64,000 bases of DNA from Bacillus salipaludis (GTDB lineage Bacteria; Bacillota; Bacilli; Bacillales_B; DSM-18226), in the NCBI RefSeq assembly GCF_004358205.1, contig NZ_SMYO01000003.1, positions 496,001 to 560,000 of the forward strand, given 5' to 3'. Made by a program: the position numbers and the translations under genes. Below, in pieces: positions 26,174-49,230 of this stretch (the stretch's first letter is position 1; each line of letters opens with the position of its first letter). The notes below the pieces were generated by a model. That model made no database searches. It saw nothing but the letters and a program-made list of their open reading frames with translations, and was not told the origin of the DNA.

Positions 26174-26596
26174 TCACTCACCAATAATCATCACCGAAGA
26201 AACAACACTTGCTGCCTTTTTCTCATTTTGAAATAAATCGGACACGACGTAGGCAACTTTCCTTCCCAATCTTTCCACCCTTGCCTCAACCATGACCTCT
26301 CCCTTTAAAATGGGTCTATGAAAGGTCGTATGCAGGTCAATAGAAGTAAAGCTTTGTTCACCCTTCAACTTAGATGCAACTGCATAGGCCATCATAATGT
26401 CTGCCGCTGATGAAACAAAGCCGCCCATTGCCACACCGAGTCCGTTCATAAACTGCTCATTGACTTTCCAAATGCCCTGTGCGACCCCATCCTCCGCCGA
26501 TGTCACTTCAATTTGCAAAGTCAAATCACATGGAGGTGGTGCAGCGCCATCTGTTACAACCTTCAAAAGATCAAATTCCTTGTTTATTTTCCCCAT
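26174..26596 (-). CDS. PaaI-type hotdog-fold acyl-CoA thioesterase
   Basis: A 140-residue single hotdog domain. The motif FMNGLGVAMGGFVSSAADIMMAYA matches the thioesterase active-site helix of the PaaI/4HBT family, with DLHTTFHRPILKG as the following strand. The ATG at 26596 has AGGAG 7 nt upstream. It follows the nitronate monooxygenase-like gene by 23 bp and both lie downstream of paaX, so it may hydrolyse stalled acyl-CoA intermediates. A second PaaI-like gene occurs at 39.5 kb. Confidence 0.82.
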   Translation of the reverse strand: MGKINKEFDLLKVVTDGAAPPPCDLTLQIEVTSAEDGVAQGIWKVNEQFMNGLGVAMGGFVSSAADIMMAYAVASKLKGEQSFTSIDLHTTFHRPILKGEVMVEARVERLGRKVAYVVSDLFQNEKKAASVVSSVMIIGE

Positions 26597-26619
26597 CCCC
26601 AAACTCCTCTCAAGAACTT

Positions 26620-27573
26620 TTACATGGTAAAAAGACGCAGGCGCTCCTCCATAACTGCACGTGCCTCACTCATCATTCCATCTAATAATTCCTGTACAGT
26701 TGGAACATCTTCAATAAGCCCAGCAATTTGTCCACTGTTCATGAAGCCATTTTCACCGTCACCACGCAGGGCACCTTTCAGATGGAAATCCTCCGATGTC
26801 ATCTGACGGTATTGTTCTTCTGATAAACCGTGACGTTCCAAATCAATAATTTGTTTTGCATAGCCTGATTTTAGTACTCTCCTGACCTGGCCAACCGAAC
26901 GGCCCAAAATCACCGTTTCCTGATCGCTAGCCTCAATCAATCGATTTTTATATGTAGAATGGAAAGGTGCTTCCATTGTTGCAATTAAGCGTGTCCCCAT
27001 CTGTACTCCTGACGCCCCGAGCATTAATGCAGCAGCTAAACCATGTCCATCGCCTATCCCCCCTGCAGCTAAGACAGGGACAGAAACATGTTTGCAAATT
27101 TGCGGGATCAGCGTAAAAGTGGTCAATTCTAGATTGGAATTAATTCCGGCTGCTTCAAATCCTTCCGCAACCAAAACATCGGCACCAGCCTCTTCTGCCT
27201 TTTGTGCATGTTTAACAGCCGCAACAATAACAATCACCTTTATGTTATATTCGTGCAATTGTCCAATATAAGGTGCAGGATTGCCGGCAGACAATGAAAC
27301 AACAGGTATCTTGTGTTTAATGACAAGTTGAATCATTTCATCAGTATAGGGACTAACATTGATAGGTATATTGATTGCAAAAGGCTGATCTGTCAGATCC
27401 TTCGTTTCCAGAATAATCGATTCAACCTGCGCAGGGGTCATCGTTCCGCATCCAATCGTCCCAAGCCCTCCAGCATTCGATACAGCTGCTGTCAGTTGAG
27501 CATTACTGATATTACCCATTCCTCCTTGGATAATTGGATATTTTATCGATAGCAATTCATTTACTGATTTCAC
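26620..27573 (-). CDS. FMN-dependent nitronate monooxygenase / enoyl reductase-like protein
   Basis: A TIM-barrel flavoprotein of 317 residues in the 2-nitropropane dioxygenase family. The start IKYPIIQGGMGNIS, LVAEGFEAAGIN, the FMN-binding VLAAGGIGDGHGLAAALMLGASGVQMGT (near 175-200) and the following GTR stretch are typical. The GTG at 27573 has AGAGGAG 7 nt upstream; a longer frame lacks a site. Members oxidise alkyl nitronates, and a subset are FabK enoyl-ACP reductases. Its position at the end of the paa region suggests a role with acyl or aromatic compounds, which I cannot define. Confidence 0.82.
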   Translation of the reverse strand: MKSVNELLSIKYPIIQGGMGNISNAQLTAAVSNAGGLGTIGCGTMTPAQVESIILETKDLTDQPFAINIPINVSPYTDEMIQLVIKHKIPVVSLSAGNPAPYIGQLHEYNIKVIVIVAAVKHAQKAEEAGADVLVAEGFEAAGINSNLELTTFTLIPQICKHVSVPVLAAGGIGDGHGLAAALMLGASGVQMGTRLIATMEAPFHSTYKNRLIEASDQETVILGRSVGQVRRVLKSGYAKQIIDLERHGLSEEQYRQMTSEDFHLKGALRGDGENGFMNSGQIAGLIEDVPTVQELLDGMMSEARAVMEERLRLFTM

Positions 27574-27621
27574 ACAAATTCTCCTCTCATTAAAAAGAAA
27601 TTGCACGGTTCCATTTACAAC

Positions 27622-27659
27622 AAAGCAGCTCTTCAAAAAAATGGTTGAAAAGCTGCTTT
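27622..27659 (-). terminator. Hairpin after paaX
   Basis: AAAGCAGCT and AGCTGCTTT form a 9-bp stem with a 20-nt loop, 6 nt after the paaX stop. The T-tract behind it is poor, so termination may be partial and allow read-through to the next gene. Confidence 0.5.
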
Positions 27660-27664
27660 GTTTG

Positions 27665-28546
27665 TCACTGAATCATATACGGATGGTGTTTAGCATCATA
27701 GGAGTCGTCTTTTTTACATAAATCATTATTTTCCTTAAAAATGCTTTCAAAAAAACGACTGGCCGGTTCCGCAAGAAGTTGATAATATTGGTTAAATAAT
27801 GTGGCTGCAAGGTTTCCATTCCAATTTTCCGGCAATAGTTCTTTTGGAAGTCCGGGATCGATAAACAAAAATTTGCGATATTCATGGACAAGCTTAGTCC
27901 GTTCAACAAAACATTGGGCATCGGTCATTTCACCGCGACTAATAATCTCTTGATTGGCAAAAAATTGCTTGCTGTACGTGATAATAAATTCTTCATATTT
28001 CTCAACCACATCTTCTAACGGCCAGCTTTTTTCAACTAGAGTTTTATTATCTCTTGGACCGATATATTCAGAGACGAAAAAGTCTACATATTCGCTGATA
28101 TCATATTTTTCAATAAGGAGTTTCACTTCTTTTTCCAAGTTATTCGGAGAAATCCAGCAGGCATTTGAAAAGCTGCCAAAGCCGCTCCATAATAATTCTT
28201 GACGAAGTTCATCCCGAATCTGTCTCTTCTCTTCGGGAATGGTATACATAAGAACACGCCATTTTCCATCCCATTCACTTGGATTCAGCTTGAAAATACG
28301 ATTTCCTGCTTCTTCAATTCGGTCTATACCCTGTTTTGTTAGAAAATAATAGCTGCGATTCTCGACCTTTTCAGATTGGATCCACCCTTGTTTCAACATA
28401 CGGGAAACGGCTACCCGAACGGCCTGCTCATTATGACCGAATTCCTTTAGTAGTCCAATTAGACTGCCAATCCAAATTTTATTCCCATAGTGATGAATAT
28501 AATCACCGTATATTGTAAAAATCATGGAGCGTGTATTTTCACCCAT
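27665..28546 (-). CDS. paaX: PaaX family repressor of phenylacetate degradation
   Basis: A 293-residue PaaX-type regulator. The N-terminal winged helix includes LLKEFGHNEQAVRVAVSRMLKQGWIQ, followed by the KWRVLMYTIPEEKRQIRDELRQ and GFGSFSNACWISP stretches of the PaaX central domain, and the C-terminal PaaX_C region. Family members are released from DNA by phenylacetyl-CoA. It is at the end of the paa run but has its own promoter-like region upstream with the palindromic TTATACGAGCGTTATAA at about 28.58 kb. It probably controls paaA and paaI through the ACGTT-type sites described below. Confidence 0.93.
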   Translation of the reverse strand: MGENTRSMIFTIYGDYIHHYGNKIWIGSLIGLLKEFGHNEQAVRVAVSRMLKQGWIQSEKVENRSYYFLTKQGIDRIEEAGNRIFKLNPSEWDGKWRVLMYTIPEEKRQIRDELRQELLWSGFGSFSNACWISPNNLEKEVKLLIEKYDISEYVDFFVSEYIGPRDNKTLVEKSWPLEDVVEKYEEFIITYSKQFFANQEIISRGEMTDAQCFVERTKLVHEYRKFLFIDPGLPKELLPENWNGNLAATLFNQYYQLLAEPASRFFESIFKENNDLCKKDDSYDAKHHPYMIQ

Positions 28547-28626: not shown

Positions 28627-29403
28627 CTATTTCCCTGAAAAACGAGGGGCTCTTTTTTCACTAAATGCATTTAAGGCTTCTACGCGATCTTCCGTCGGTA
28701 TCGTTAGTTCGTATGCTTTTGCTTCAATTTCAAGCCCTGTTTGTAAATCGGTGTTAAGCCCTCTTGTAATCGCATATTTTGCCTGTCTGATGGCAACTGG
28801 CCCATTTTTCATTATTTTTGCAGCAAATTCCTCACAAGCAGACATTAATTCGTTACGAGACACTACCTCTAGGACTATACCCAATTCTAGTGCTTCTTGG
28901 GCAGACAATTTCTTTGCCGTGAAAATTAATTCCTTTGCCTTTGTTTCGCCAACTAATCGCGGCAATCGCTGTGTTCCGCCTGCTCCTGGAATAATTGCCC
29001 AGCTTGTTTCGGTTAATCCCAAAGAGATTCCTTCTACAGCAATAGCAAAGTCACAGGATAGCAGCCATTCAAATCCACCGCCAAGCGCATAGCCATTAAC
29101 AGCTGCAATTGTTGGCTGCGGTAGCAATGCAATACTGTTAAACACATCGCGAATGGCTTTTACATTTCTTCTGGTTTCTGTTTCTGTTAATGTTTTTCTT
29201 TCCTTCAAATCAGCGCCTGCGCTAAAAGCCTTTTCTCCAGCTCCGGTAAAAATAACGACGTGAACATCGGGATTTAACGAGATTTCATTCACCACTTCTT
29301 GAAGCTGGGAAAGTGTAGCATAGTTAAAACAGTTTAAAACGTCAGGTCGATTAACGGTAACATAACCAATATGATTTTCTACTTTATATAAGACATTTTC
29401 CAT
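28627..29403 (-). CDS. Enoyl-CoA hydratase/isomerase family protein (paa cluster)
   Basis: A crotonase-fold enzyme of 258 residues. The oxyanion-hole regions AFSAGADLKER (about 59-69) and GYALGGGFEWLLSCD (about 104-118) and both catalytic glutamates (in GGGFE and in LGLTETSWAIIPGAGG) are present, so it should be an active hydratase. It lies between paaJ and paaX. It could be a second dehydroadipyl-CoA hydratase or the crotonase-type alternative oxepin-CoA hydrolase, which the cluster otherwise lacks. Confidence 0.85.
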   Translation of the reverse strand: MENVLYKVENHIGYVTVNRPDVLNCFNYATLSQLQEVVNEISLNPDVHVVIFTGAGEKAFSAGADLKERKTLTETETRRNVKAIRDVFNSIALLPQPTIAAVNGYALGGGFEWLLSCDFAIAVEGISLGLTETSWAIIPGAGGTQRLPRLVGETKAKELIFTAKKLSAQEALELGIVLEVVSRNELMSACEEFAAKIMKNGPVAIRQAKYAITRGLNTDLQTGLEIEAKAYELTIPTEDRVEALNAFSEKRAPRFSGK

Positions 29404-29471: not shown

Positions 29472-30677
29472 TTAATTTTCAATATTTTCAATGATTGCGG
29501 CAATTCCTTGTCCAACACCAATACACATGGTTGCCAGACCATATTGAACGTTTTGTTTTTTCATTTCATGGACAAGGGTAGTCAAAATACGGGCCCCACT
29601 TGCTCCAAGCGGATGGCCAAAAGCAATGGCACCGCCATTAACATTTACTTTATCCGCATCAAGCTCCAATTGTCTCATACATTCGATGGACTGGGAGGCA
29701 AAGGCTTCGTTTAATTCAACTAACCCAATCTTATCGATTGATAGATTCGCTCTTGTAAGGGCTTTTCTTGAAGCATAGATAGGTCCTAATCCCATTACAG
29801 ATGGTTCAAGACCCGCAACTGCTCCCACTACATATTTAGCAAGCGGCTTTAAGCCAAGTTCCTTTGCTTTTTCAGCGCTCATTAACAATACGGCAGAAGC
29901 ACCATCATTTACACCGGATGCATTTCCCGCAGTGACCGTACCTCCTTCAAAAATAGGCCGAAGTTTTGATAGCTTTTCTAAGGAAGTATCCGGGCGTGGA
30001 TGCTCGTCCTTTGTTACCACTACCTCGTTCCCTTTCCGATCTTTAAAGGTGACAGGAACAATTTCATTCGCAAACCGTTCGTTTTCCATAGCGACTTTGG
30101 CTCGTTGCTGGCTTCGAAGCGCAAATTCATCTTGTTCTTCACGTGTGATCGAACAGCGCTGCGCTACATTTTCAGCTGTTTGAGGCATCGATTCTGCCCC
30201 GTACATTTCTTCTAATTTTTTATTTGTGAAGCGCCAGCCAATCGTCGTATCCTGAAGTTCCATGGAACCTCTTGGGTAGTCAACCTCAGGCTTGCCCATG
30301 ACATAAGGAGCACGTGTCATGCTCTCCGTTCCACCAGCAATATAGATATCTCCTTCACCCACAGCGATTGATCTAGCTGCTAGAATTACAGCATCTAAAC
30401 CTGAACCGCAAAGACGGTTAATCGTTGTGCCACCTACAGTAATCGGCAGTCCAGCAAGAAGTCCTGACATTCTGGCAACATTTCGATTGTCTTCCCCTGC
30501 TTGATTGGCATTTCCAAAAATGACATCTTCGATTTGTTCCGGAGGAAGGTTAGGATTTCTTTCAAGAAGAGCCTTGATGACGATGGCGCCTAAATCATCT
30601 GGGCGAACACTTTTTAAAGCACCTTTATATTTTCCAATCGGCGTTCTAACTGCGTCGACAATTACAACTTCTTTCAT
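29472..30677 (-). CDS. paaJ: 3-oxoadipyl-CoA / 3-oxo-5,6-dehydrosuberyl-CoA thiolase
   Basis: A thiolase of 401 residues that cleaves 3-oxoadipyl-CoA to succinyl-CoA and acetyl-CoA and acts on the dehydrosuberyl intermediate. The acyl-enzyme cysteine is in [11 protein letters not shown] (about 87-97), the histidine in [11 protein letters not shown] and the second cysteine in CIGVGQG. The [10 protein letters not shown] form is that of PaaJ/PcaF, unlike the [10 protein letters not shown] of the biosynthetic thiolase at 54.4 kb. Its ATG overlaps the paaH stop by 4 bp (ATGA), showing coupling. Confidence 0.92.
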
Positions 30678-31543
30678 TTTTTCACCAACTCTTCTTTTTT
30701 GGTATAATCATAAACACCTTTACCCGTTTTACGGCCAAGTCTGCCTGCAGCTACATATTGTTCAAGTAATGGTGCTGGACGGTATTTTTCGCCTAATTTT
30801 TCATGCAAGTATCTCAAGTTATTTAAACGGGCATCCAATCCAACAAGGTCAACTAATTCAAATGGGCCCATTGGATAGTTCAATCCAAGTTTGATAGCTT
30901 TATCAATGTCTTCAGGTGTTCCAAGTCCTTCTTGAAGCATATAAAAAGCTTCATTACCGACAAGACAGCTGATACGGCTAGTGACAAAACCAGGGAATTC
31001 ATTGATTACAACCGTTTCTTTCTCCATTTGTTCCGCCACTTTTTTAATCGTTTCAGCGGTTTCATCACTCGTTTCAAGACCGCGGACGATTTCTACAAGC
31101 GGCATTTTGTGAACCGGATTAAAGAAGTGCATTGCAATCGTTTGATCCGCGCGTTTACCATATGATGCAATTTCTGTTGGACTCATGGTAGAAGTATTGG
31201 TAGCAAATAAGCAATGTTCTGGTGCAAATTGCTCCATTGTTTCAAAAACCTGTTTTTTAATTACTGCTTTTTCAGGGACAGCCTCAATAATTAAGTCAGC
31301 AATAGAACATGCCTGCGGCAGATCACTCGCATAGGATAGATTCGCTTTCGCGAAATTTTCCTGTTCAGAAGAAATTTTTCCTCTTTCGCGTCCTTTTGCA
31401 AAAATGGAATTTAATTCACCTTCGGCACTTTTAAGCGCATTTTCATTCACATCAACCAATGTAACGGAAAATCCACCAAGTGCAGATACATAGGCAATCC
31501 CTCTACCCATTACACCAGAACCAACAACAACGATGTTTTTCAT
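30674..31543 (-). CDS. paaH: 3-hydroxyadipyl-CoA dehydrogenase
   Basis: Oxidises 3-hydroxyadipyl-CoA to the 3-oxo form with NAD+. In 289 residues the Rossmann motif VVGSGVMGRGIAYVSA is at 5-20, the HFFNPVHKMPLVEIVRG signature near 138-154 and NEFPGFVTSRISCLVGNEAF near 178-197. AAAGGAGAG lies upstream of the ATG at 31543; an in-frame TTG directly before it is an alternative. The stop overlaps paaJ. It is separated from the aldehyde dehydrogenase gene by a 15-bp perfect hairpin. Confidence 0.92.
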   Translation of the reverse strand: MKNIVVVGSGVMGRGIAYVSALGGFSVTLVDVNENALKSAEGELNSIFAKGRERGKISSEQENFAKANLSYASDLPQACSIADLIIEAVPEKAVIKKQVFETMEQFAPEHCLFATNTSTMSPTEIASYGKRADQTIAMHFFNPVHKMPLVEIVRGLETSDETAETIKKVAEQMEKETVVINEFPGFVTSRISCLVGNEAFYMLQEGLGTPEDIDKAIKLGLNYPMGPFELVDLVGLDARLNNLRYLHEKLGEKYRPAPLLEQYVAAGRLGRKTGKGVYDYTKKEELVKK

Positions 31544-31570
31544 CAAAGATCTCTCCTTTGTCTAATTAAA

Positions 31571-31606: not shown

Positions 31607-31614
31607 GTGGGATA

Positions 31615-33123
31615 TTAAACACCTAGTGGATTTATTGGACGACTTCCAAAGTAAGAAACAATGCTCTTTGTTTCGGTATAAAGATCGAGTGTTTCAATGC
31701 ATAACTCACGGCCGAAACCTGATTGCTTATAACCGCCAAATGGTGTACCAGGGAAGGCCGAGAATGGGCAGTTTACCATCACGATTCCTGCTTCAATTTG
31801 CTTTGCCACACGAGTTGCGCGCGCGCCATCTTTTGACCAAACTGCTGAACCTAATCCGAATTCTGTGTCGTTTGCAAGTTTAATTGCTTCTTTTTCATCC
31901 TTAAACTTCATAACTACTACAACAGGCCCAAAGATTTCTTCCTTTACAACTGTCATGTCGTGATTGACATTTGCAATGACAGTCGGCTCATACCAGAATC
32001 CACCTTCATATCCTTCTACAACAGCAGGCTTTCCTCCTGCTAAAATCTCTGCGCCTTCTTCAATTGCGGATTTTACAAAGCCATCGATAACTTCTAATTG
32101 TGCTTGATCAATGATTGCACCCATATGAGTGCCTTTATCAAATGGATTCGCAAGTACTAATTTCTTTGTTTTTTCAACAAACTTCGTGATGAATTCATCG
32201 TAAATATCTTCATGAACATATAAACGTGAACGTGCTTCACAGGATTGTCCAGAGTTATAGAAGATTCCGAAAAGAGATCCATCAACGGCAGCATCGATAT
32301 CCGCATCTTCAAATACGAGATTAGGAGATTTACCGCCTAATTCAAGCGTAACACGTTTTAATGTTTCAGAAGCTTTTGCCATAATATCTTTACCGATTGG
32401 TGTAGAACCAGTGAAAGCCACTTTATTTACTTTTGGATGTTCTACAAGGTAGTTTCCAACCTCTGAACCTGATCCAGGAACAATGTTGACAACACCAGCT
32501 GGTACGCCTGCTTCTAAGCAGATTTCACCTAAAATAATCGCAGTAAGCGGAGTTAAGCTAGCTGGTTTTACAATAACAGAACAACCAACTGCAATCGCCG
32601 GAGCGATTTTCCAAGCAGCCATCATCAATGGATAGTTCCAAGGAATGATTTGCGCACATACGCCAACAGGCTCTTTTTCAGTAAAATTATGAAATTGGCC
32701 AGGCATATTATTAACGACACCGCGGTGTCCGACAATAGCCCCTGCATAGAATTCAAAATCTTCAATCGCTTGTGATACTTGCCCTTGTGCAGCAGCTAAA
32801 GATTTACCAGTGTCCAAAATTTCTAATTCTACCAATTCATTGAACCGGGAGCGCATAATTGCGGCAATCTTATTTAACACTTGTGAACGACGGTTAATTG
32901 GATATTTACGCCATTTTCCGTGATCAAATGCTTCGCGTGCTGCTAAAACGGCTCTCTCTGCATCCTCTTGTGATGCTTTTGCTACTTCAGCAACTAATTC
33001 ACCAGTAGCTGGATTATAAGTTTTAATCGTTTTTCCATTGGAGCTTTCTACCTTTTCGCCGTTTATAATTAAATGATAGTAATCTCTTTTTAAAGAAACC
33101 GCTTCAGTTACTTGTGTTGTCAT
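31615..33123 (-). CDS. Aldehyde dehydrogenase, probable paa semialdehyde dehydrogenase
   Basis: An NAD(P)-dependent aldehyde dehydrogenase of 502 residues with the catalytic cysteine in NSGQSCEARSRLYV (about 290-303), the general-base glutamate in TLELGGKSPNLVFEDAD and PWNYPLMMAAWKIAPA in the cofactor site. In the paa pathway the ring-cleaved semialdehyde must be oxidised. E. coli uses the ALDH half of PaaZ for this. Here there is only the ALDH part without the fused MaoC hydratase domain. Phenylacetaldehyde oxidation is the alternative. GAGGAGG precedes the ATG. Confidence 0.88.
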   Translation of the reverse strand: MTTQVTEAVSLKRDYYHLIINGEKVESSNGKTIKTYNPATGELVAEVAKASQEDAERAVLAAREAFDHGKWRKYPINRRSQVLNKIAAIMRSRFNELVELEILDTGKSLAAAQGQVSQAIEDFEFYAGAIVGHRGVVNNMPGQFHNFTEKEPVGVCAQIIPWNYPLMMAAWKIAPAIAVGCSVIVKPASLTPLTAIILGEICLEAGVPAGVVNIVPGSGSEVGNYLVEHPKVNKVAFTGSTPIGKDIMAKASETLKRVTLELGGKSPNLVFEDADIDAAVDGSLFGIFYNSGQSCEARSRLYVHEDIYDEFITKFVEKTKKLVLANPFDKGTHMGAIIDQAQLEVIDGFVKSAIEEGAEILAGGKPAVVEGYEGGFWYEPTVIANVNHDMTVVKEEIFGPVVVVMKFKDEKEAIKLANDTEFGLGSAVWSKDGARATRVAKQIEAGIVMVNCPFSAFPGTPFGGYKQSGFGRELCIETLDLYTETKSIVSYFGSRPINPLGV

Positions 33124-33138: not shown

Positions 33139-33912
33139 TTATTTGCCGATAAAGGTTGGTTTTCTTTTTTCCATAAAGGCCTGAACGCCTTCACGAGCAT
33201 CTTTTGTTAGACCAGCAATTCTTTGGGCTTGCGCCTCTTCTTCTAAGTAGTCAGTAAAGGATTTTTCACCTGTAGATTTGATTGTGCGTTTGATTAATCC
33301 AATTGCTTTTGTTGGTAATGCCGCAATTCGCTCTGCAAATTGGGTGACTTCAGCATCCCAGTTATCAGTAGATACCACTTTAGTCGCCAGCCCCAATGAA
33401 AGCGCTTGATCCGCAGGGATTTTTTCACCTAAAATCGAAATTTCCAATGCTTTTGCTTCTCCTACTAATCTAGTAAGGAAGTAACTATTACCTGAATCTG
33501 GGATTAAACCAATGTGAATAAAAGCATTTAAGAAGCTTGCGCGTTCTGAAAGAATACGAAAATCACAGGCTAATGCAAGGCTAAAACCTGCACCGGCAGC
33601 AATCCCGTTGACAGCCGCTATAATCGGTTTCTCACATTGATAAATTTGCTTTATCATCGGCCCGTATTTCTCCCTTAATACCTGCCCATGATCCATATTT
33701 TCATCTACTTCTGACAGGTCTTGACCGGAGCAAAAACCACGTCCTTCACCGGTAATAACGATGCAGCGGACCTCTTCAGCTGTAGAAGCTATTTTAATGG
33801 CTTTAGTAATTTCTCTATTCATTTGAGCCACGAATGCATTTAATGTAGTTGGCCGATTTAACGTAATCCAGGCCACACCGTTTTCAACAGCATACAAAAT
33901 CGTTTCGTACAT
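33139..33912 (-). CDS. paaG: 1,2-epoxyphenylacetyl-CoA isomerase
   Basis: A 257-residue crotonase-fold protein that isomerises ring-1,2-epoxyphenylacetyl-CoA to oxepin-CoA. The hydratase glutamate is replaced (GIAAGAGFSLALACD) and the PaaG-type aspartate is present in IGLIPDSGNSYFLTRLVG, which separates it from the hydratases on either side. I start at the ATG at 33912, which has GGGAG 8 nt upstream. It starts 4 bp after the preceding crotonase gene, showing one transcript. Confidence 0.88.
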   Translation of the reverse strand: MYETILYAVENGVAWITLNRPTTLNAFVAQMNREITKAIKIASTAEEVRCIVITGEGRGFCSGQDLSEVDENMDHGQVLREKYGPMIKQIYQCEKPIIAAVNGIAAGAGFSLALACDFRILSERASFLNAFIHIGLIPDSGNSYFLTRLVGEAKALEISILGEKIPADQALSLGLATKVVSTDNWDAEVTQFAERIAALPTKAIGLIKRTIKSTGEKSFTDYLEEEAQAQRIAGLTKDAREGVQAFMEKRKPTFIGK

Positions 33913-33916
33913 ATGG

Positions 33917-34693
33917 TTATCTCCCTTTAAATTCCGGCTTCCGCTTTTCAATAAAAGCGTTCATACCTTCTTTTTGATCTTCGGAAGCAAATAATAAATA
34001 GAAATTTTTCCGTTCATATTGCATTCCTTCATAAAGAGAATAATCCACCGCTTTATTGACTGCATCTTTAATATAACGAATTGAAAGCGGCGCTTGGTTT
34101 GCAATAAATCTTGCTGTTTTCATCGTTTCTTCCATTAATAATTCAGGATAGACAACTCGATTAATTAATCCGTGCTGAAAGGCACTTTCTGTTGAAATTC
34201 GAGTGCCGTTCCATAACCATTCCAACGCTTTCGTTCTGCCGACAATTTTTGTCAAGCGCTGGGTGCCACCCGCTCCCGGCATAACCCCAAGGTTCACTTC
34301 CGGGAATGAAAATTCCGTACCGCTGGCTGCAATTAATAAATCACAGCTCAGTGCCAACTCAAATCCCCCGCCAAAAACAAAGCCTTTTACCGCACCAATG
34401 ATTGGCTTTTTGATTAAAGATAGACGGTCCCACTCGGCAAATTGATTTAATAGCTCCAATCGAATTGGATCATCCCCTGCCATTTCATCAATATCTGCAC
34501 CTGCTGAAAACGCCCGTCCTTTCCCCGTGATCACGATAACCTGAACTTTCTCATCCCCGTCGAAAGTTTCCATCGCATCAACAATTTCGTGTACCATTGT
34601 TCGATTTAAGGCATTATATTGAGCTGGTCTATTTAGCTCAATAAGCGCTACACCGTCTTGATGTGAAGCTTCAATAAATTTATAAGCTTTCAT
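33917..34693 (-). CDS. paaF: 2,3-dehydroadipyl-CoA hydratase (enoyl-CoA hydratase)
   Basis: A 258-residue crotonase-fold enzyme with both catalytic glutamates (GFVFGGGFELALSCD and FSFPEVNLGVMPGAGGTQRL split around residues 106-143). It therefore fits a true hydratase such as PaaF. Its ATG overlaps the EthD gene stop by one base (TAATG). Which of this gene and the one at 28.6 kb is the main PaaF cannot be decided by eye. Confidence 0.82.
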   Translation of the reverse strand: MKAYKFIEASHQDGVALIELNRPAQYNALNRTMVHEIVDAMETFDGDEKVQVIVITGKGRAFSAGADIDEMAGDDPIRLELLNQFAEWDRLSLIKKPIIGAVKGFVFGGGFELALSCDLLIAASGTEFSFPEVNLGVMPGAGGTQRLTKIVGRTKALEWLWNGTRISTESAFQHGLINRVVYPELLMEETMKTARFIANQAPLSIRYIKDAVNKAVDYSLYEGMQYERKNFYLLFASEDQKEGMNAFIEKRKPEFKGR

Positions 34694-34995
34694 TAATCGT
34701 CTTCTCCGATAACCAAAGTAACTAGCTTACCGGCAAATTTCATTAAGTCTTTTCCAGAAGCTTTACCTTCTTCGGAACGCATGCCCTTTTGTAAATCCTC
34801 ATGGCTGTCATAACGCATTTCACACATTAAATAATAAGGAGGCTCCCCGCCCATTGGCGTTCCAGTAAATCTTGTTACTTTGATTTCACGCAAGCCAGGA
34901 ATTTTTTCCGTGATTGGAACATGTACATTATTATAATGTTCATCAAATGCAGCCTTGTCTTCCGGTTGTTTATATAAAGCAATTAATTTAGCCAT
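34693..34995 (-). CDS. EthD family protein in the paa operon
   Basis: A 100-residue dimeric alpha+beta barrel (EthD/ferredoxin-like) protein. The family pattern KLIALYKQPEDKAAFDEHY followed by HVPITEKIPGLREIKVTRF is at the N-terminus. EthD proteins accompany oxygenase or aromatic pathway genes, but their activity is poorly defined. It lies between paaD and paaF with short gaps and a clear GAGGAG site. E. coli paa clusters have no such gene. It might help ring opening or protect against a reactive oxepin/aldehyde intermediate; this is inference. Confidence 0.85.
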   Translation of the reverse strand: MAKLIALYKQPEDKAAFDEHYNNVHVPITEKIPGLREIKVTRFTGTPMGGEPPYYLMCEMRYDSHEDLQKGMRSEEGKASGKDLMKFAGKLVTLVIGEDD

Positions 34996-35523: not shown

Positions 35524-35549
35524 GATCACACCTCTTTTCTATGTTTACA

Positions 35550-37684: not shown

Positions 37685-37707
37685 ATCTATACCGCCTTTC
37701 TCTATAT

Positions 37708-37724: not shown

Positions 37725-37753
37725 ATTATATTTTATTGTTATATAAAAAGCAA
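37725..37753 (-). promoter_or_regulatory. Sigma-A promoter of the paaA operon
   Basis: On the minus strand TTGCTT (37753-37748) and a consensus TATAAT (37730-37725) are separated by 17 nt, 41 bp upstream of the paaA start. Confidence 0.75.
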
Positions 37754-42441: not shown

Positions 42442-43812
42442 TTATACGACATTCTCTTCTTGAATCTTAGTATCCTGGTCTTCCGAGTTTTTAAATTTCA
42501 AAATTGAGATCGCAACTAACACTGCCAAAACAACTAGACTAGTAATAATACTGACGCGGTTTTGCACGTTAAACACAAATATCACGGATATAAAGCTTAA
42601 AATTAAAACGGTAATCGCTGTGATATAGGGGAAACCCCACAATTTGAAGCTCGGATTCATTGGATAGGTTTTCCGAAGTTTTAATTGTGCCAAACAAATG
42701 CTGATCCACACTAATGATACGACAAATCCCGGAACCGCCATTAATAACATAAATACTTGATCCTGAGCAACATAAGCAATCATCGAACCGCCGATTAAAA
42801 CCACGGCACTTAGCATTAGGCTGTATAATGGTACACCTTTGTTTGTTACATAAGAGAAGGACTTCGGTGCTTCCCCTTCTACCGCTAAAGAATGCAGCAT
42901 TCGCGTACATCCATAAATTCCAGAGTTCGCTGCAGATAATACTGCGGTAATTAAAATAAAGTTCATCAGATGCGCGGAGCCCTGAAGACCAGTCATCGAC
43001 AATACCTGGACAAATGGACTTGCGTGATCACTTATTTTATCCCAAGGAATTAAACCACAAATGACTAGTATCGGAAGTGTATAAAACAATATAATGCGCC
43101 AAATAAAACTCTTAATCACCTTGGGTAATATACGATCTGCATCTTTTACTTCTGTAACCGTTAACCCGATCAGTTCTGAACCGCCATACGAAAACATCAC
43201 AATTAACAGCGCTGAAAAGATGGACGTCCATCCTTTTGGAAAAAATCCACCATGTTCCGTAAAATTTTGCAGATAGTTCGATTGATTACTTGGAATAAGT
43301 CCAAATAGAATACAAGCTCCCAAAATGATAAATACGATAATCATGGTGATTTTAATGCCGGCAAACCAAAATTCAAACTCCCCATAATTTTTCACATTCA
43401 TCATGTTAATGCCAATAACCAATGCAGCACAGCCCAAACTTAATTCCCAAAGTGGAATAGAGGGAAGCCAATATTGTAAGAAACTGCCGGCCACGACAAT
43501 TTCAATGACACACACAGCCAGCCACATAAAACAATACATCCAGCCAATTACGAAAGAGGCACGCTTACCGAAGGCTTTCCGAACAAAACCTTTCATATTT
43601 GTATTTGGATAGACAATTGCCATTTCTGCTATAGCACCCATCACAACAAGCAGCAACAGACCTGCGAACACATAGGTAAAGATTACTCCCGGTCCGGCTA
43701 TTGATACCGTTTCCGCGCTCCCTTTAAAAATCCCGGTCCCGATTGCTCCTCCCATTGCCATTAAGCTAATATGGCGTGGCAATAACTTTTTTTGCAGTGA
43801 TGCAGATTTCAA
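42442..43812 (-). CDS. AAT family amino acid permease
   Basis: A 456-residue APC-superfamily transporter with about 12 hydrophobic segments. The first segments read HISLMAMGGAIGTGIFKGSAETVSIAGPG (unwound-helix motif GGAIGTG), and the conserved SYGGSELIGLTVTE stretch is near 220. It starts at TTG with AGGAGGAG about 6 nt upstream. It lies directly downstream of the PheDH-E1-E2 genes on the same strand. The AAT family includes phenylalanine and aromatic permeases, so uptake of Phe for this operon is a reasonable inference. Branched-chain or other amino acids are not excluded. Confidence 0.85.
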   Translation of the reverse strand: MKSASLQKKLLPRHISLMAMGGAIGTGIFKGSAETVSIAGPGVIFTYVFAGLLLLVVMGAIAEMAIVYPNTNMKGFVRKAFGKRASFVIGWMYCFMWLAVCVIEIVVAGSFLQYWLPSIPLWELSLGCAALVIGINMMNVKNYGEFEFWFAGIKITMIIVFIILGACILFGLIPSNQSNYLQNFTEHGGFFPKGWTSIFSALLIVMFSYGGSELIGLTVTEVKDADRILPKVIKSFIWRIILFYTLPILVICGLIPWDKISDHASPFVQVLSMTGLQGSAHLMNFILITAVLSAANSGIYGCTRMLHSLAVEGEAPKSFSYVTNKGVPLYSLMLSAVVLIGGSMIAYVAQDQVFMLLMAVPGFVVSLVWISICLAQLKLRKTYPMNPSFKLWGFPYITAITVLILSFISVIFVFNVQNRVSIITSLVVLAVLVAISILKFKNSEDQDTKIQEENVV

Positions 43813-43904: not shown

Positions 43905-45197
43905 TTATGTTAATTCAATTGGCCATAGCTTTGGATTTTCAATTAATTGCTTAAAACGATTTGTAAAGGCCACGGCCGTAGCACCGTCAGCCACGCGGTG
44001 GTCAAACGCCATCGACATCGTCATGATTGAACGAATCGCAATTTCATCATTCTCCACGACAACAGGCATTTTTTTCGTTTTATGAAAAGCAATTAATCCC
44101 GTTTCCGGATAATTAATAATCGGTGTTGCCCCGATACTTCCTAATGGACCAACATTACTGATGGTAAATGTTCCGCCTTTTAAATCCGCTGGTGTCAGCT
44201 GATTTTCTTGTGCTTTTTTAGTCAATTCTTTTAGTTTGTCATGAATTTGACGAACCGTTAATTGATCTGCATGATGGATGATTGGGACAATTAAACCATC
44301 TTCAGTATCTGTAGCAATTCCAATGTTATATTCTTTTTCTAAACGAATCACTTCGTTTTCTTCATCGAGTTTTGCATTGAATACTGGGAATTGTTTTAAT
44401 GCTACGGCAATGGCTTTAATAAAGAAAGCAACTGCCGAAACATGGATCCCTATTTCTTTTAAATCCATTCTATAAGCAAGCAGGTCCGTTAAATCGGCCT
44501 CTTCAAAATGTGTCACATGTGGAATGGTATAAAGAGATTGGGTCATTTTCTTTGCTATCTGCTTCCTGCGGCCTCTAAAAGGAATCTCTTCACCTTTTGT
44601 TTCCTTTTCATTTCGGACTTCCCGTCCACGATTGTCTACGTTTGGCTTTTTTATTTGTTCTATCGATTCTGCGGAAATCGCTTTCATTTCCTTGGAAGAC
44701 TGCACCAAGTCGCGTTTTTTAACAAAATTGTATATATCTTCTACTGTGATCCGTCCGTTTATTCCTGTGCCTGAAATTTCGTTAATATCTACTTGAAACT
44801 CGCGAGCAATTTTCCTTGTGTATGGGGCTGCAATGATAAATTGTTTTTCTTCTTTTCCCTTAGCTTGCTTTGTTGGCTGTGGTTGTGTTGTAGGTATATC
44901 CTTTTCTAGGGGTGCTGTTTCTTCCAGTTTCATTTCCATCAATTCTTTTGCTTCTTTTGTCTCCTCTGCTTCCAGCACAAGAAGTGTTGTACCAACAGAT
45001 ACAGTGGTTCCATAATCGACCACAATTTCTTTTACTTTTCCCGATGCAGGAGATGGAAGCTCAGCCACCATTTTATCTGTTTGTACCTCAACCAGAGGCT
45101 GATCAACTTTTACTCTATCGCCAACCTTAACAAAATAGTGAATAATCTCTCCCTCTGTCATTCCTTCCCCAATATCATGAAGTTTTACTTCAACCAA
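43905..45197 (-). CDS. 2-oxoacid dehydrogenase E2 (dihydrolipoyl acyltransferase)
   Basis: The 430-residue core subunit that moves the acyl group from lipoate to CoA. It has an N-terminal lipoyl domain with the lipoylated lysine in VQTDKMVAEL (K near 43), a linker, a peripheral subunit-binding domain (APYTRKIAREFQVDINEISGTG split near 124-143) and the catalytic domain ending in SMAFDHRVADGATA with its His and Asp. It is 12 bp after the E1 beta gene. No E3 gene follows, so the complex must borrow a dihydrolipoamide dehydrogenase from elsewhere. Confidence 0.92.
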   Translation of the reverse strand: MVEVKLHDIGEGMTEGEIIHYFVKVGDRVKVDQPLVEVQTDKMVAELPSPASGKVKEIVVDYGTTVSVGTTLLVLEAEETKEAKELMEMKLEETAPLEKDIPTTQPQPTKQAKGKEEKQFIIAAPYTRKIAREFQVDINEISGTGINGRITVEDIYNFVKKRDLVQSSKEMKAISAESIEQIKKPNVDNRGREVRNEKETKGEEIPFRGRRKQIAKKMTQSLYTIPHVTHFEEADLTDLLAYRMDLKEIGIHVSAVAFFIKAIAVALKQFPVFNAKLDEENEVIRLEKEYNIGIATDTEDGLIVPIIHHADQLTVRQIHDKLKELTKKAQENQLTPADLKGGTFTISNVGPLGSIGATPIINYPETGLIAFHKTKKMPVVVENDEIAIRSIMTMSMAFDHRVADGATAVAFTNRFKQLIENPKLWPIELT

Positions 45198-45209: not shown

Positions 45210-46232
45210 CTAAAAATACATAACTTTTTCGATTCCGTTTACTACCCGCTTAGGTGTTGGTAAATAATGTTCCTCAAGCGCAAAAAGCGGAACTGGCACA
45301 TCAAAACCTGTAACACGTTCAACCGGAGACTTCATAAAGAGAAACGATGTATCGTTAATAATGGAAACAATATCATTCCCCACGCCGCCTGTTTGATGGG
45401 CTTCATGAACAATTACGGCACGTCCTGTTTTTTGAACAGACTCTGCAATTATGTCTTTATCAATAGGATAAAGGGTTCGCAAATCAATCACATCACAGGT
45501 GATCCCTTGTTTTTCTGCCTGTTCTACTGCTTTCAAAGCTACCGGCACCATTGCTCCCCATGCGATAACCGTTACGTCTTTCCCCTCTTTAAGCTTTTTC
45601 CCTTTACCGATTTCAACGATGTATTTTCCTTCTGGAACCTCTTCCCGCTCTGAACGGTAGATTCTCATCGACTCTAAAAATAAAACAGGATCCGGGTCTT
45701 CGATGGCAGCAATCAGCAGCCCCTTTGCATCGTATGCCGAAGAAGGACAAACAACTTTTATTCCAGGCATATGCGCAAACAATGCTTCCATACTGTCTGA
45801 ATGCACCTCAGGAGCACGGATGCCTGCACCATATGGCGCCCGAATCACCATCGGAACCGAATAGCGCCCCATAGTTCGCATCCGAATCCGTGATACATGT
45901 GTCATGATCTGCTCAAACGCTGGGTAGATAAACCCTAAGAACTGCATTTCCGCTACAGGTTTGAATCCATTGATTGCCATTCCGATAGAAGTACCAATAA
46001 TGCCCGCTTCACTTAGCGGCGTATCCATTACACGATCTTCACCGAATTCCTCCTGCAGGCCCTCAGTAGCGCGGAATACCCCTCCGTTTTTTCCAATATC
46101 TTCGCCAAGTAAAAGGACATTTTCATCCTCTTTTAACATTATGCGCAATCCATCTGTAACCGCTTGAACAAGTGTCAGCTGATTCGTTTTTACGGCAGTT
46201 TGTTCTAACGGTCTCTCTAAAGTCATCACCAT
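45210..46232 (-). CDS. 2-oxoacid dehydrogenase E1 beta subunit
   Basis: A 340-residue E1 beta chain with the typical LLGEDIGKNGGVFRATEGLQ (about 39-58), DTPLSEAGIIGTSIGMA (about 70-86), RAPYGAGIRAPEVHSDSMEALFAH and DLRTLYPID motifs. I start at the ATG at 46232: GGAGGGG lies 7 nt upstream and the start overlaps the E1 alpha stop (TGATG). A longer in-frame start inside E1 alpha is rejected. The substrate is inferred from the operon: phenylpyruvate or branched-chain 2-oxoacids. Confidence 0.92.
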   Translation of the reverse strand: MVMTLERPLEQTAVKTNQLTLVQAVTDGLRIMLKEDENVLLLGEDIGKNGGVFRATEGLQEEFGEDRVMDTPLSEAGIIGTSIGMAINGFKPVAEMQFLGFIYPAFEQIMTHVSRIRMRTMGRYSVPMVIRAPYGAGIRAPEVHSDSMEALFAHMPGIKVVCPSSAYDAKGLLIAAIEDPDPVLFLESMRIYRSEREEVPEGKYIVEIGKGKKLKEGKDVTVIAWGAMVPVALKAVEQAEKQGITCDVIDLRTLYPIDKDIIAESVQKTGRAVIVHEAHQTGGVGNDIVSIINDTSFLFMKSPVERVTGFDVPVPLFALEEHYLPTPKRVVNGIEKVMYF

Positions 46233-47305
46233 CACACTTCCCCTCCAATTAATTGAAGATACTGTTCTTTTTGTTTTGCAATCGTCCAAGTTGGCTTTTC
46301 AAACACATTATCAAATAAATCATTGATATTTGGTTTTGGAAAACTTTCCATATCTTTTACTGCTTGCTCTACTTCGCTTTCCGTTTCCTCTTTAACCTTA
46401 AGCGCCCATTCTTCATCCCAAAAACCGTTTACCTTCATAAAGCGCTCGACACGAAGAAGAGGATCCTGCTTTTCCCTAATGGTATCGCTTTCTGATTGAT
46501 TGCGGTATTTCCTTGGATCGTCCGCAGTGGTATGGGCACCGTACCTCCATGTGATCGCTTCAATTAAAGTCGGTCCTCCTCCATTACGTGCACGTTCCAT
46601 GTACTCTTTTGTCTGGAAATAGACAGCAAATATATCGTTTCCATCCACACGTACACCTGGCATATCGTAACCAAGTGCCTTTTGGGCAATGGTTTTGGAA
46701 TTCATTTGTTTTTCGATCGGAACGGAAATGGCAAATCCGTTATTTTGATTAAAAAAGATTACGGGTGCTTGAAATACACTGGCAAAGTTCAATCCTTCAT
46801 GGAAATCACCCTCTGAAGTAGCTCCGTCTCCAAAATAAGCTATTGCTGCATTCTTCGTTCCCTTTCTTTTTTCTGCCATTGCCGCTCCCGCTGCATGCGG
46901 GATTTGTGTGGCAATTGGTACGGCAGGTGGGAAAATCTTTTTACCTTCTTCCGGTACACAACCTTCCACTCGACCGTTCCAATATAATAGAGTACGAGCC
47001 ATGCTAGCACCGAATGTTAAGGTAGCTCCGTGATCACGGTAGGTAGGGAATACCCAGTCCTCTTTGCCAAGCGCCAGAGCACTTCCAACTTGAGAAGCTT
47101 CCTGCCCTTCAAATGGGGCATACGTTCCAAGTCTCCCTTGACGCTGCAAACTGATGGCTTTTCGATCAAAAGTTCGGATGCGAACCATATGATAGTAGAA
47201 TTGTTTGACAAGGTCTTCTGTTAATTGGTCTTTATACTGTTCATTTATTAATTGCCCAGTTTCATCGACAATTTGAAAAATTGGAAATTCTATTGACATT
47301 GACAT
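46232..47305 (-). CDS. 2-oxoacid dehydrogenase E1 alpha subunit
   Basis: A 357-residue thiamine diphosphate-dependent decarboxylase subunit. The ThDP/Mg motif starts GDGATSEGDFHEGLNFASVF and ends FFNQNN (about 170-197), and RYGAHTTADDPRKYR near 260 is the phospho-loop region. FEGQEASQVGSALAL is near 63-77. It lies 24 bp after phenylalanine dehydrogenase. By sequence alone it is PdhA-like and could act on pyruvate, branched-chain or aromatic 2-oxoacids. Position behind PheDH and beside the paa genes favours phenylpyruvate. Confidence 0.92.
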   Translation of the reverse strand: MSMSIEFPIFQIVDETGQLINEQYKDQLTEDLVKQFYYHMVRIRTFDRKAISLQRQGRLGTYAPFEGQEASQVGSALALGKEDWVFPTYRDHGATLTFGASMARTLLYWNGRVEGCVPEEGKKIFPPAVPIATQIPHAAGAAMAEKRKGTKNAAIAYFGDGATSEGDFHEGLNFASVFQAPVIFFNQNNGFAISVPIEKQMNSKTIAQKALGYDMPGVRVDGNDIFAVYFQTKEYMERARNGGGPTLIEAITWRYGAHTTADDPRKYRNQSESDTIREKQDPLLRVERFMKVNGFWDEEWALKVKEETESEVEQAVKDMESFPKPNINDLFDNVFEKPTWTIAKQKEQYLQLIGGEV

Positions 47306-47329
47306 CCAATCACCTCATTAGGAGAATTT

Positions 47330-48469
47330 TTATTTACAAATATCCCATTTAGGGCGTTTTGTATGTGAGAAGAAGCTATTTTGCCTTTGTCGGTCTTCCA
47401 TTCGTTTTTCACAGAACCGGTTTGCAGCTTGAATCGTTGTGATATTATCCAGCTCTGCCTGCTTGTAAACTTCCAATAAAGACGTGTAAATGGAGCTCGT
47501 TTTGGCTAGCACACGCTCTTGATTGTAGCCGTAAAGTTCATCTGCTACTTGAATTAACCCACCGGCATTTACAATGTAGTCTGGAGCATATAAAATCCCT
47601 TTTCGTTTTAGTGCTTCTCCGTGATTTTCCATTAGAAGCTGATTGTTCGCCGATCCTACGACTGCCTTAACCTTTAACAGGTCTATCGTTTCATCATTAA
47701 TAATTCCGCCGAAAGCACATGGAACAAATACATCGGCATCAACTGAATACACTTCGTCTCCGGTTACACGAACGACATTGCCTCCTAATTGTTTTGCATG
47801 TTTTTGAATGGCCTTGACTGCTTCTTCATTGATATCGCTTACATATAAATCGGCACCAGATTCTAGCAATTGCTCAGCTACTTTGTAACCTACCTTCCCA
47901 AGCCCTTGGATGATATATTTTTTATGGGAAAGATTATCTGTACCAAAAACGACTTTATTGGATGCTTTTAAACCGTAAATAACTCCAAGTGCAGTTGGAA
48001 TAGATGAATCGCCGCCTCCTCCATATGCTTCTGGAATTCCTACGATGCAATTAGTCTCTTTTGCAGCGTGGATAAAATCATCCATTGAAGTTCCCATATC
48101 TGTCCCTGTATAAAAACGGCCGTTTAAAGAATCAACAAACTGACCAAAAGCCCTAAATAGTGCAGGGGTTTTATCCCTTGCTGGATCTCCTATGATAACT
48201 GCTTTTCCACCTCCGAAATCCACATCTGCGGCAGCGCATTTATAGGTCATCCCTTTAGATAAGCGAAGTACATCCTCCAATGCCTCATCCATCGTTCGAT
48301 ATGGCCGCATACGGCAGCCTCCCAAAGCAGGGCCAAGGGTTGTATTATGGATAGCGATAATCGCTTTTAACCCTGTTGCCGGATCATTACAAAAAACAAT
48401 TTGCTGATGCTCATGCATTTTATCAATTACTGTTGCGGTTGTTTCTAAAGATGGTTGGATTGTGTTCAT
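47330..48469 (-). CDS. Phenylalanine dehydrogenase
   Basis: Oxidative deamination of L-phenylalanine to phenylpyruvate with NAD+. Family: Glu/Leu/Phe/Val dehydrogenases, 379 residues. The catalytic lysine region is [19 protein letters not shown] and the NAD domain has [16 protein letters not shown]. Two residues that separate PheDH from LeuDH (Gly124 and Leu307 in the B. sphaericus enzyme; Ala113 and Val291 in the B. stearothermophilus LeuDH) are Gly122 in FYTGTDMG and Leu305 in [14 protein letters not shown]. The C-terminal [16 protein letters not shown] also matches PheDH. GGGGGT precedes the ATG. It opens the operon with E1/E2. Confidence 0.9.
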
Positions 48470-48777
48470 TGTTTTACCCCCATTATCACTGTGATTATAG
48501 TAGAAATTATTCCTAAAAAAAGAGAAAAATCAAAGTCTTTCTCAATGGTTAAAACTTTTCGATACATCCCCTCATTTGACAACGTTTACATATTCTGAAA
48601 AGATGTTACCCAAACTGAACTTTTAGTTATTTAATAATTACAAAGATTATGTTTCTATTAAATAATAAGGTATAATGTAATCGGAAAACATAACAAATCG
48701 CATAAGATTCAGGTGGTTAGTTTTCTATTTGCATAAATTTTTTGATATTTATCTACATTTTGAAAGGAGAACATTCA
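48470..48777. other. Divergent regulatory region PheDH / Lrp
   Basis: About 310 bp. TATAAT on the minus strand (48499-48494) and on the plus strand (48671-48676) are candidate -10 boxes with weak -35 elements. A cre-like element lies at 48577-48590. No gene is seen. Confidence 0.55.
48577..48590. promoter_or_regulatory. Possible CcpA (cre) site upstream of PheDH
   Basis: TGTAAACGTTGTCA on the minus strand matches the looser cre pattern TGNAARCGNWNNCA fully and TGWAARCGYTWNCA with one mismatch. It is about 80 bp upstream of the -10 candidate for PheDH. Confidence 0.4.
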
Positions 48778-49230
48778 ATGGATCCATTAGACATTCGTCT
48801 TCTTGAACTTCTTCAAATGGATGGACGAATAACCTTAAGTGAATTATCGAAGAAATTATCTCTTAGCCGTCCAAGTATTACCGAGCGTTTAAAGCGGCTG
48901 CAAGAGCGAGAAATTATAGAGGGATTCAGTGCACGGGTTTGTCCAAAAGCCGTCGGCAGAGATGTAATCGTTTTCATACAGGTCAGCGAAATGAAAATCC
49001 TTTCCTATTCAGATTTTGAAAATTTGCTAAGGGACGACCCTGATATCATTGAGTGTCATCGTTTAACCGGATCTGTCAGTTATTTACTTAAGGCTGCCGT
49101 GACAGGGATGGACCATCTGAGTAATCTAATTGATCGCCTAACTCCTTACGGAAATGTGAATACTTCCATCGTTTTATCATCACCGGTCTCATTCCGATGC
49201 ATTACCCCAAATTCCATTGCGCAGTCATAA
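48778..49230 (+). CDS. Lrp/AsnC family transcriptional regulator
   Basis: A 150-residue regulator. The N-terminal helix-turn-helix (GRITLSELSKKLSLSRPSITERLKRL, about 16-41) is followed by a RAM ligand-binding domain (VIVFIQVSEM ... ECHRLTGSVSYLLKAAVTGMDHLSNLIDRL). The ATG has AAAGGAGA upstream; a longer frame start is rejected. Being divergent from phenylalanine dehydrogenase strongly suggests that it controls that operon with an amino acid, probably Phe, as ligand. Confidence 0.92.
   Translation: MDPLDIRLLELLQMDGRITLSELSKKLSLSRPSITERLKRLQEREIIEGFSARVCPKAVGRDVIVFIQVSEMKILSYSDFENLLRDDPDIIECHRLTGSVSYLLKAAVTGMDHLSNLIDRLTPYGNVNTSIVLSSPVSFRCITPNSIAQS

Follow-up and report, generated by a model that had tools for sequence, protein, structure and literature searches.

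Introduction

The phenylacetate (paa) pathway starts with the ligation of phenylacetate to CoA by PaaK (PMC9493321, PMC4498308), and the word phenylpyruvate does not occur in these two reviews. Phenylacetyl-CoA formation directly from phenylpyruvate has been described for two other settings. In Streptomyces pristinaespiralis, the pyruvate dehydrogenase (PDH)-like alpha and beta subunits PglB and PglC were proposed to catalyze this reaction (PMC7089894, PMC10685826), and in Phaeobacter inhibens phenylalanine is converted via phenylpyruvate to phenylacetyl-CoA while phenylacetate is skipped (PMC7497051). Phenylalanine dehydrogenase (PheDH) has been reported for phenylketonuria testing and is applied in chiral synthesis.

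The present analysis concerns a stretch of 64,000 nt from Bacillus salipaludis (contig NZ_SMYO01000003.1, positions 496,001 to 560,000), termed the window, to whose positions all coordinates refer. An island at 26174..49230 combines a PheDH gene, the genes of a PDH-like 2-oxoacid dehydrogenase (E1alpha, E1beta and E2) and a nearly complete paa gene set, and very probably encodes a direct pathway from phenylalanine to phenylacetyl-CoA and on into paa degradation by means of PheDH and a dedicated E1-E2 complex. The lower pathway and the PaaX regulator are those of the classical paa pathway, which differs in its entry by PaaK. Judged by description, the complex resembles PglB/PglC in its PDH-like alpha and beta subunits and in the proposed reaction; those proteins, however, serve antibiotic biosynthesis (phenylglycine; pristinamycin) in Actinobacteria, and the pgl operon contains no PheDH and stands outside paa catabolism. 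The Phaeobacter route shares the phenylpyruvate intermediate and the bypass of phenylacetate, but an aminotransferase is suggested for its first step (PMC7497051), where the island has PheDH and an E1-E2 type complex.

Given these precedents, the reaction as such is known, and the island is rated as a new and widespread variant of it that serves catabolism. No description of a PheDH-E1-E2-paa operon of Bacilli was recognised among the entries listed by searches of an open-licence library. If the reading is correct, PheDH gains a physiological role, genes annotated as pyruvate dehydrogenase across Bacilli gain a function, and the life of paaA-bearing genomes without paaK is explained. Phenylalanine would then reach phenylacetyl-CoA by a route that keeps the thioester energy, spares ATP and avoids a reactive aldehyde.

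Identity of the dehydrogenase

The gene at 47330..48469 (minus strand) encodes a protein with the Glu/Leu/Phe/Val dehydrogenase fold domains PF02812 and PF00208. It was compared with the PheDH gene of Bacillus badius NBRC 15713 (locus L094; genome and locus numbers, G and L, are used where needed), whose 380-aa product carries L50, V144, L306 and V309 at the residue numbers given for the characterised enzyme (PMC8543943). The two proteins fall into the same clade and share 270 residues over an alignment of 379 positions (71%), and the window protein has the same pocket residues (L49, V143, L305 and V308). Gly122 and Leu305, singled out in the initial annotation as the mark of a PheDH, correspond to the B. 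badius residues G123 and L306 and are invariant in all 29 sequences of the PheDH clade, whereas Ala and Val are found in 18 of 19 leucine dehydrogenase-type sequences used for comparison. We take Gly/Leu versus Ala/Val at these two positions to set the selectivity for phenylalanine or leucine. While the B. badius enzyme is treated as a biocatalyst in PMC8543943, its gene belongs to a cluster like that of the window, beside paa genes. The match to the B. badius enzyme strongly supports the assignment as PheDH. On the PHENYLALANINE dehydrogenase question, the top-scoring solved structures are leucine dehydrogenases, and similarity alone therefore misleads.

A 99% identical PheDH occurs in G001, the nearest genome compared, and in L081 (Bacillus sp. 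UNC438CL73TsuS30), and a 98% identical one comes from a Neobacillus. It had been anticipated that annotation tools would miss the function. Among the 120 matches listed, this holds for most NCBI entries, which carry the names leucine, Leu/Phe/Val or Glu/Leu/Phe/Val dehydrogenase, but not for a few others from NCBI, nor for JGI, which names phenylalanine dehydrogenase for many relatives. The one exception among the 19 comparison sequences, a protein 54% identical to that of the window (L012, G052), lies outside the PheDH clade, has Gly and Leu at both positions, and may represent another phenylalanine dehydrogenase-like subfamily.

Operon structure and conservation of the gene linkage

PheDH is followed on the minus strand by the genes for E1alpha (46232..47305; over the cut-off of TIGR03181), E1beta (45210..46232; its ATG overlaps the E1alpha stop codon as TGATG), the E2 dihydrolipoyl acyltransferase (43905..45197; lipoyl, subunit-binding and catalytic parts were read from the sequence) and an AAT-family amino acid permease (42442..43812; PF00324). 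The permease is a candidate for phenylalanine uptake; it comes near the models for GABA, proline, PheP and AroP permeases without reaching their cut-offs. Apart from the overlap of E1alpha and E1beta, the gaps between the five genes are short. E1alpha, E1beta and E2 are thus encoded together, as in PDH-like 2-oxoacid dehydrogenase complexes; no E3 gene was found in this operon. A gene for an Lrp/AsnC-type regulator (48742..49230, plus strand; PF01037, PF13404) is divergent from the operon, and its adjacency to PheDH is retained in close relatives. The first paa gene, encoding PaaI, lies 2.5 kb from the permease, with an M20 peptidase gene in the gap. The open reading frames (ORFs) thus bear out the gene order of the initial annotation, including a paa set beginning within 3 kb, and its expectation that E1 would be named as a pyruvate dehydrogenase also proved right, as E1alpha passes the NCBIfam model of that name.

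Conservation was assessed in 398 genomes of the class, with E-value cut-offs of 1e-135 for PheDH and 1e-110 for E1alpha. PheDH was found in 47 and paaA in 145 of these genomes, and all but one of the PheDH genomes (46/47) also carry paaA (Fisher p about 1e-21, a value that ignores kinship). The two genes are at most 40 kb apart in 40 of the 46 genomes with both. E1alpha lies within 6 kb of PheDH in 43/47 genomes, and in 40 of these at a distance of about 1.1 kb; among the remaining four, G358 has an adjacent E1alpha with a weaker score, G237 and G226 have a different E1 and G072 has none. The initial annotation had named a lack of co-occurrence in relatives as a refutation of its reading, and these counts show the opposite. 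In a further 15 genomes, where no PheDH reached the strict cut-off, E1alpha and paaA are at most 40 kb apart.

In addition, named genomes were scanned, which yielded 367 loci; all counts out of 80 refer to the best 80 of these 367. These tallies derive from a greedy longest-ORF annotation that may hide genes (as with PheDH and E1 in G383) and may therefore be undercounts; a corrected ORF order was used for 14 sets of loci. E1alpha and E1beta were found in 67/80 loci, E2 in addition in 65 and E3 as well in 50. Of eight paa-cluster labels (PaaA, B, C, D, G, K, X, EthD), one or more were found within 10 kb in 60/80 loci, 58 of them with E1. The 13 loci without E1 comprise nine from Paenibacillus, L144, L152, L158 and L104 of Fervidibacillus; L152 is cut by a contig end, and L158 comes from a strain with two copies, of which the other (L128) has the module.

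The same linkage bears on a rival reading, in which the complex would be one more 2-oxoacid dehydrogenase of branched-chain or broad specificity, paired with a dehydrogenase for leucine or valine, and would lie beside paa by chance, with leucine-degradation genes nearby. The leucine dehydrogenase structures among the top matches speak for it, as do leucine-catabolism-like genes at 56155-63937 of the window. Such neighbours (MCC/CoA-transferase-type genes within 10 kb) were, however, seen only in L081 and L084 of the 80 loci, and L086 shows no more than hydratases 34-52% like the MGCH gene of the window; paa-cluster labels, as counted above, accompany three quarters of the loci. Moreover, G001 has a separate leucine dehydrogenase-type gene, with a branched-chain 2-oxoacid dehydrogenase (BKD)-type E1alpha gene that starts 4 kb away, and the PheDH residues match those of B. 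badius. A leucine-catabolic island was rejected because of the rarity of the MCC-type neighbours, and the leucine/valine reading as a whole is very unlikely.

Same-clade PheDH genes were also observed beside 4-hydroxyphenylpyruvate dioxygenase and fumarylacetoacetase genes (L103, L105, L107, L111, L113, L123, L137, L139, L150 and L144). These tyrosine/homogentisate-type neighbours were checked with hidden Markov models (HMMs) in L103, assigned by similar gene lengths in the others and by eye in L144. To judge from the HMM-checked L103, the Paenibacillus/L144 loci place PheDH in another setting of aromatic amino acid metabolism. A biosynthetic role of PheDH was weighed and rejected, as the nine Paenibacillus loci and, by eye, L144 again point to catabolism.

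Nature of the E1-E2 complex

In each of eight genomes examined for E1alpha paralogs, the module E1alpha is accompanied by a single BKD-type sequence and by one of the PDH type (two in G304). The module E1alpha is 37-41% identical to the BKD-type and 42-47% identical to the PDH-type paralogs. In a tree of 56 E1alpha sequences the BKD sequences stood far apart (support 100/100), the PDH paralogs grouped together (97/97), and so did 33 sequences that were PheDH-linked, paa-linked or, in some cases, unlinked (97/94), with support of 82/54 for the fork that joins these two clades. The G115/G392 type, represented by six divergent sequences, had a weak placement (82/75) in this tree. When the BKD sequences were left out, these six joined the 33 to give a clade of 39 (99/96), and eight PDH sequences grouped with those of G237 and G226 in a different clade (100/100); one divergent PDH-like sequence (PDH_L169) shifts between the trees and moves to the base of the 39 in the second. 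In view of these separate positions, the complex belongs with neither housekeeping complex, and the possibility of a housekeeping PDH or BKD operon was rejected on the basis of the paralog survey and the E1alpha trees. We infer from the operon, the loss of paaK and a shared palindrome, both described below, that the complex may be a dedicated phenylpyruvate dehydrogenase.

Genomes that lack paaK

A genome was scored as lacking paaK when no match to TIGR02155 was found at E <= 1e-60, a definition under which other acyl-CoA ligases may still be present. The nearest miss, in G100, had an E-value of 1.5e-56 and scored 192 bits (cut-off 646). By this measure paaK is absent from 18 of the 145 paaA-bearing genomes, and all 18 are 97-100% complete. 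Eleven belong to the 46 genomes with PheDH and paaA (G325, G308, G334, G368, G343, G383, G131, G100, G072, G237 and G226) and seven to the other 99 with paaA (G277, G319, G332, G440, G417, G435 and G444), a division that hinges on the 1e-135 cut-off, since G417, G435 and G444 carry divergent PheDH-type genes with an adjacent E1. E1alpha and E1beta adjoin a PheDH-type gene or paaA in 16 of the 18; E2 was also seen in 14 of those 16; it was not seen in G319, and the stretch analyzed in G100 is too short to include it. With a uniform cut-off, the module was present in 14/18 genomes without paaK as against 47/127 with it (Fisher p 0.0016, again ignoring kinship).

One example is G383. All 18 other sampled PheDH-bearing congeners carry paaK between PheDH and paaA (in two of them, G313 and G241, in pieces), whereas G383 has no paaK and retains genes for a FlK-type protein, PheDH, E1, E2 and E3 together with the paa genes of its sisters. 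Such naturally paaK-less species offer a direct way to test the idea.

These genomes also bear on the classical alternative, in which phenylpyruvate is converted to phenylacetaldehyde and phenylacetate before ligation by PaaK and the E1-E2 complex has another role. The island does contain paaK and an aldehyde dehydrogenase gene. Against this stands, besides the loss of paaK next to a linked E1, the result for TIGR03394, the sole family model used for indole/phenylpyruvate decarboxylase, whose cut-off was reached in none of 41 genomes; weak matches occurred in 36 of the 41 and in 13 of 14 controls, the strongest in G392 at 1.2e-66. The classical route is therefore regarded as very unlikely.

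The second enzyme of the Phaeobacter route is reportedly an indolepyruvate ferredoxin oxidoreductase. The model for its alpha subunit (TIGR03336) was not matched over the cut-off in any of 19 genomes. The best matches were in G417 and in the paaK-less G332, where a distant one (G332:C1:1566312-1567985) has four internal stop codons. In G072, the lengths of genes beside PheDH also raised the suspicion of a ferredoxin oxidoreductase, which was discarded because these genes look flagellar by eye.

Probable second recruitment and possible exchange of the first step

Two of the paaK-less genomes, G237 and G226, combine PheDH and paa genes with an adjacent E1 that is nested with the PDH paralogs. 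The E1 of G237 shares 53-58% identity with eight of nine PDH paralogs, about 41% with the ninth and at most 43% with the main E1alpha clade. The tree of 56 sequences carried a long-branch warning for both genomes, and the rebuild without BKD kept them with PDH (100/100). By this grouping, the E1 beside PheDH in these two genomes probably goes back to a separate recruitment of a PDH copy.

In four genomes a HisC-like aminotransferase takes the place of PheDH before E1 (HMM-checked in G440 and G215, by sequence in G152 and G346). The paaA gene is located just downstream in G440 and G215, within the same 26 kb in G152 and elsewhere in the genome of G346. The aminotransferases of G440 and G215 score above the hisC cut-off and so may be ordinary histidinol-phosphate transaminases; an action on phenylalanine is a guess.

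A shared palindrome and putative regulation

Dyad counting in 60 upstream regions led to the palindrome ATAACGTT-N5-AACGTTAT. The dyad occurs in 6 sequences, whereas in ten shuffles no dyad was present in more than 2; the 60 regions come from loci that were later counted, and some are near-duplicates (L119 and G044 carry identical gene sets). With up to three mismatches, 97 occurrences were obtained in 2.06 Mb, compared with 2 to 41 (median 11) for 60 permuted palindromes. The palindrome lies upstream of 40/58 FlK-type operon heads, mostly the gene preceding PheDH, of 10/15 paaA heads and of 15/33 heads of a TrpX transporter, a class outside the discovery set. It was found upstream of 1/15 Lrp, 0/39 paaX, 1/86 other labelled and 11/354 unlabelled heads. 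The element precedes paaA and the heads of PheDH operons in many genera. In the window, predicted operators lie upstream of paaA (37706..37726, one mismatch) and, as a weaker candidate with three mismatches, between paaK and paaI (39484..39504).

Binding of the palindrome by PaaX is a guess. In Escherichia coli, PaaX is induced by phenylacetyl-CoA, on which it releases the DNA (PMC9493321, PMC4498308); its operator, TGATTC(N27)GAATCA (PMC9493321), differs from the palindrome of the Bacilli. The site of Thermus PaaR, AACnAACGTTnGTT (PMC6651687), has an AACGTT core in common with it.

The FlK-type gene (fluoroacetyl-CoA thioesterase family) was seen in 53/80 loci, commonly at the head of the PheDH operon (L046:626-1021, L041:18667-19056, L038:527-937); none was labelled beside the PheDH of the window. 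The enzyme might possibly serve as a safety valve for phenylacetyl-CoA. Its frequency just before PheDH also favors an alternative in which phenylacetyl-CoA is made mainly for another use, such as the release of phenylacetate by FlK/PaaI thioesterases or the supply of a precursor. The linkage and the palindrome are, however, shared with ring-degrading paaA, which leaves this alternative with very little probability. A PF04392-type ABC transporter (binding protein, permease and ATPase; TrpX) belongs to the module in 34/80 loci (L046:1241-4122) and is a candidate importer of aromatic amino acids or aromatic acids.

Upstream of PheDH in the window, TGTAAACGTTGTCA (48577..48590, minus strand) resembles a CcpA catabolite-repression (cre) box and may hint at carbon catabolite control.

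Proposed route and points against it

The island can be read as a pathway from phenylalanine to succinyl-CoA and acetyl-CoA. The permease would import phenylalanine, and PheDH, whose identity is strongly supported, would deaminate it to phenylpyruvate. Gene organisation suggests that the PDH-like E1-E2 complex then converts phenylpyruvate, CoA and NAD+ to phenylacetyl-CoA by oxidative decarboxylation, presumably with an E3 that is encoded elsewhere here and within the operon in many relatives. PaaABCD would epoxidise phenylacetyl-CoA and the remaining Paa enzymes would degrade the product, as in the known pathway. Where a genus has the palindrome at both of these promoters, at the PheDH operon and at paaA, phenylacetyl-CoA could derepress its own synthesis and degradation, since it is the inducer of E. 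coli PaaX. The operon structure, the palindrome at paaA in related genera and the genomes without paaK support the direct decarboxylation proposed in the initial annotation, with phenylpyruvate as the presumed substrate of E1. The claim that PaaK is bypassed stands in part: the route itself is supported, but the island retains paaK, a gene that the initial annotation did not place in it, so that external phenylacetate can enter too and the direct route adds to the ligase, which makes the bypass optional in this organism.

Several observations weigh against this reading. Apart from the leucine-type genes near the island, paaK is kept in the window and in 35 of the 46 genomes with PheDH and paaA. 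G072 (L217) has PheDH and a full paa set with neither paaK nor a suitable E1, and the E1 of the paaK-less G332 is unlinked. PheDH lies among other genes, without E1, in the nine Paenibacillus loci and L144, and the Fervidibacillus locus combines PheDH and paa with no E1 nearby. In G428, G181, G400, G084, G392 and G358, paaA is distant from PheDH or on another contig. The residues of the E1alpha clade are mixed where PDH and BKD differ (65 positions, of which 31 are PDH-like, 14 BKD-like and 20 peculiar to the clade), so that substrate specificity cannot be read off, and the E1 of G237 retains mostly PDH-type residues. The palindrome was found at only 4/33 PheDH heads with an upstream gap of their own and 1/11 paaK heads, and none within five mismatches lies upstream of the PheDH of the window, where the operon may instead answer to the divergent Lrp-type gene.

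Beyond the window, a phenylpyruvate dehydrogenase dedicated to this step is likely to serve aerobic Bacilli as a widely used, modular entry to the paa pathway. Its first step would be exchangeable (PheDH, perhaps a HisC-like aminotransferase), and it would have been recruited at least twice, once as its own clade and once as the PDH duplicate of G237 and G226. It could share an operator with the ring genes, and where it is present paaK would be dispensable and would have been lost repeatedly.

The paa genes and the surroundings of the island

Twenty window proteins were scanned against NCBIfam models, and Pfam was used for domains. The paa genes span 26174-39984, and PaaX, PaaA, PaaC, PaaD and PaaK pass NCBIfam cut-offs, which identifies a paa pathway; PaaB, PaaG, PaaH, PaaJ and PaaI were assigned by weaker matches, position or synteny. 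The PaaI-type thioesterase gene (39535..39984; TIGR02286, 103.7 bits, below the cut-off of 118.9) is on the plus strand and all others are on the minus strand. PaaK (37868..39196) narrowly passes TIGR02155 (650.3 bits, cut-off 646.3). It is followed by PaaA (36728..37684; over the TIGR02156 cut-off), PaaB (36359..36709; by ORF and position, syntenic in relatives), PaaC (35550..36383; over TIGR02158), PaaD (35023..35529; over TIGR02159) and a small protein conserved in the cluster that was labelled EthD-like by eye (34693..34995). Next come a PaaF-like enoyl-CoA hydratase (33917..34693; NCBIfam scan), a PaaG-like isomerase (33139..33951; top NCBIfam match TIGR02280, below cut-off) and an aldehyde dehydrogenase that presumably provides the PaaZ dehydrogenase function (31615..33123; by scan and position). 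The remainder consists of a PaaH-like 3-hydroxyacyl-CoA dehydrogenase (30674..31546; over NF006722), a PaaJ-like 3-oxoadipyl-CoA thiolase (29472..30677; just below the cut-offs of 3-oxoadipyl-CoA thiolase models), a second enoyl-CoA hydratase (28627..29403; NCBIfam scan), the PaaX repressor (27665..28546; over TIGR02277), a FabK/nitronate monooxygenase-like flavoprotein (26620..27636) and a hotdog thioesterase (26174..26602; over TIGR00369).

No PaaE was recognised among the 20 scanned proteins, the rest of the genome not having been searched for it; a C-terminal stretch of PaaD matches a haloarchaeal PaaE model below the cut-off. As the cluster has no recognised PaaE, the FabK-like flavoprotein might be the missing reductase, or it might serve another step. 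It is frequently retained beside paa, as seen in many named Bacilli loci. No Rfam match was obtained in window positions 20000-64000. Polyhydroxyalkanoate-type genes (49498-55597) adjoin the island, followed by the leucine/isovalerate-type catabolism genes at 56155-63937, with labels given by inspection and with Pfam for two; the same neighbours are found in G001/L081 and G003/L084.

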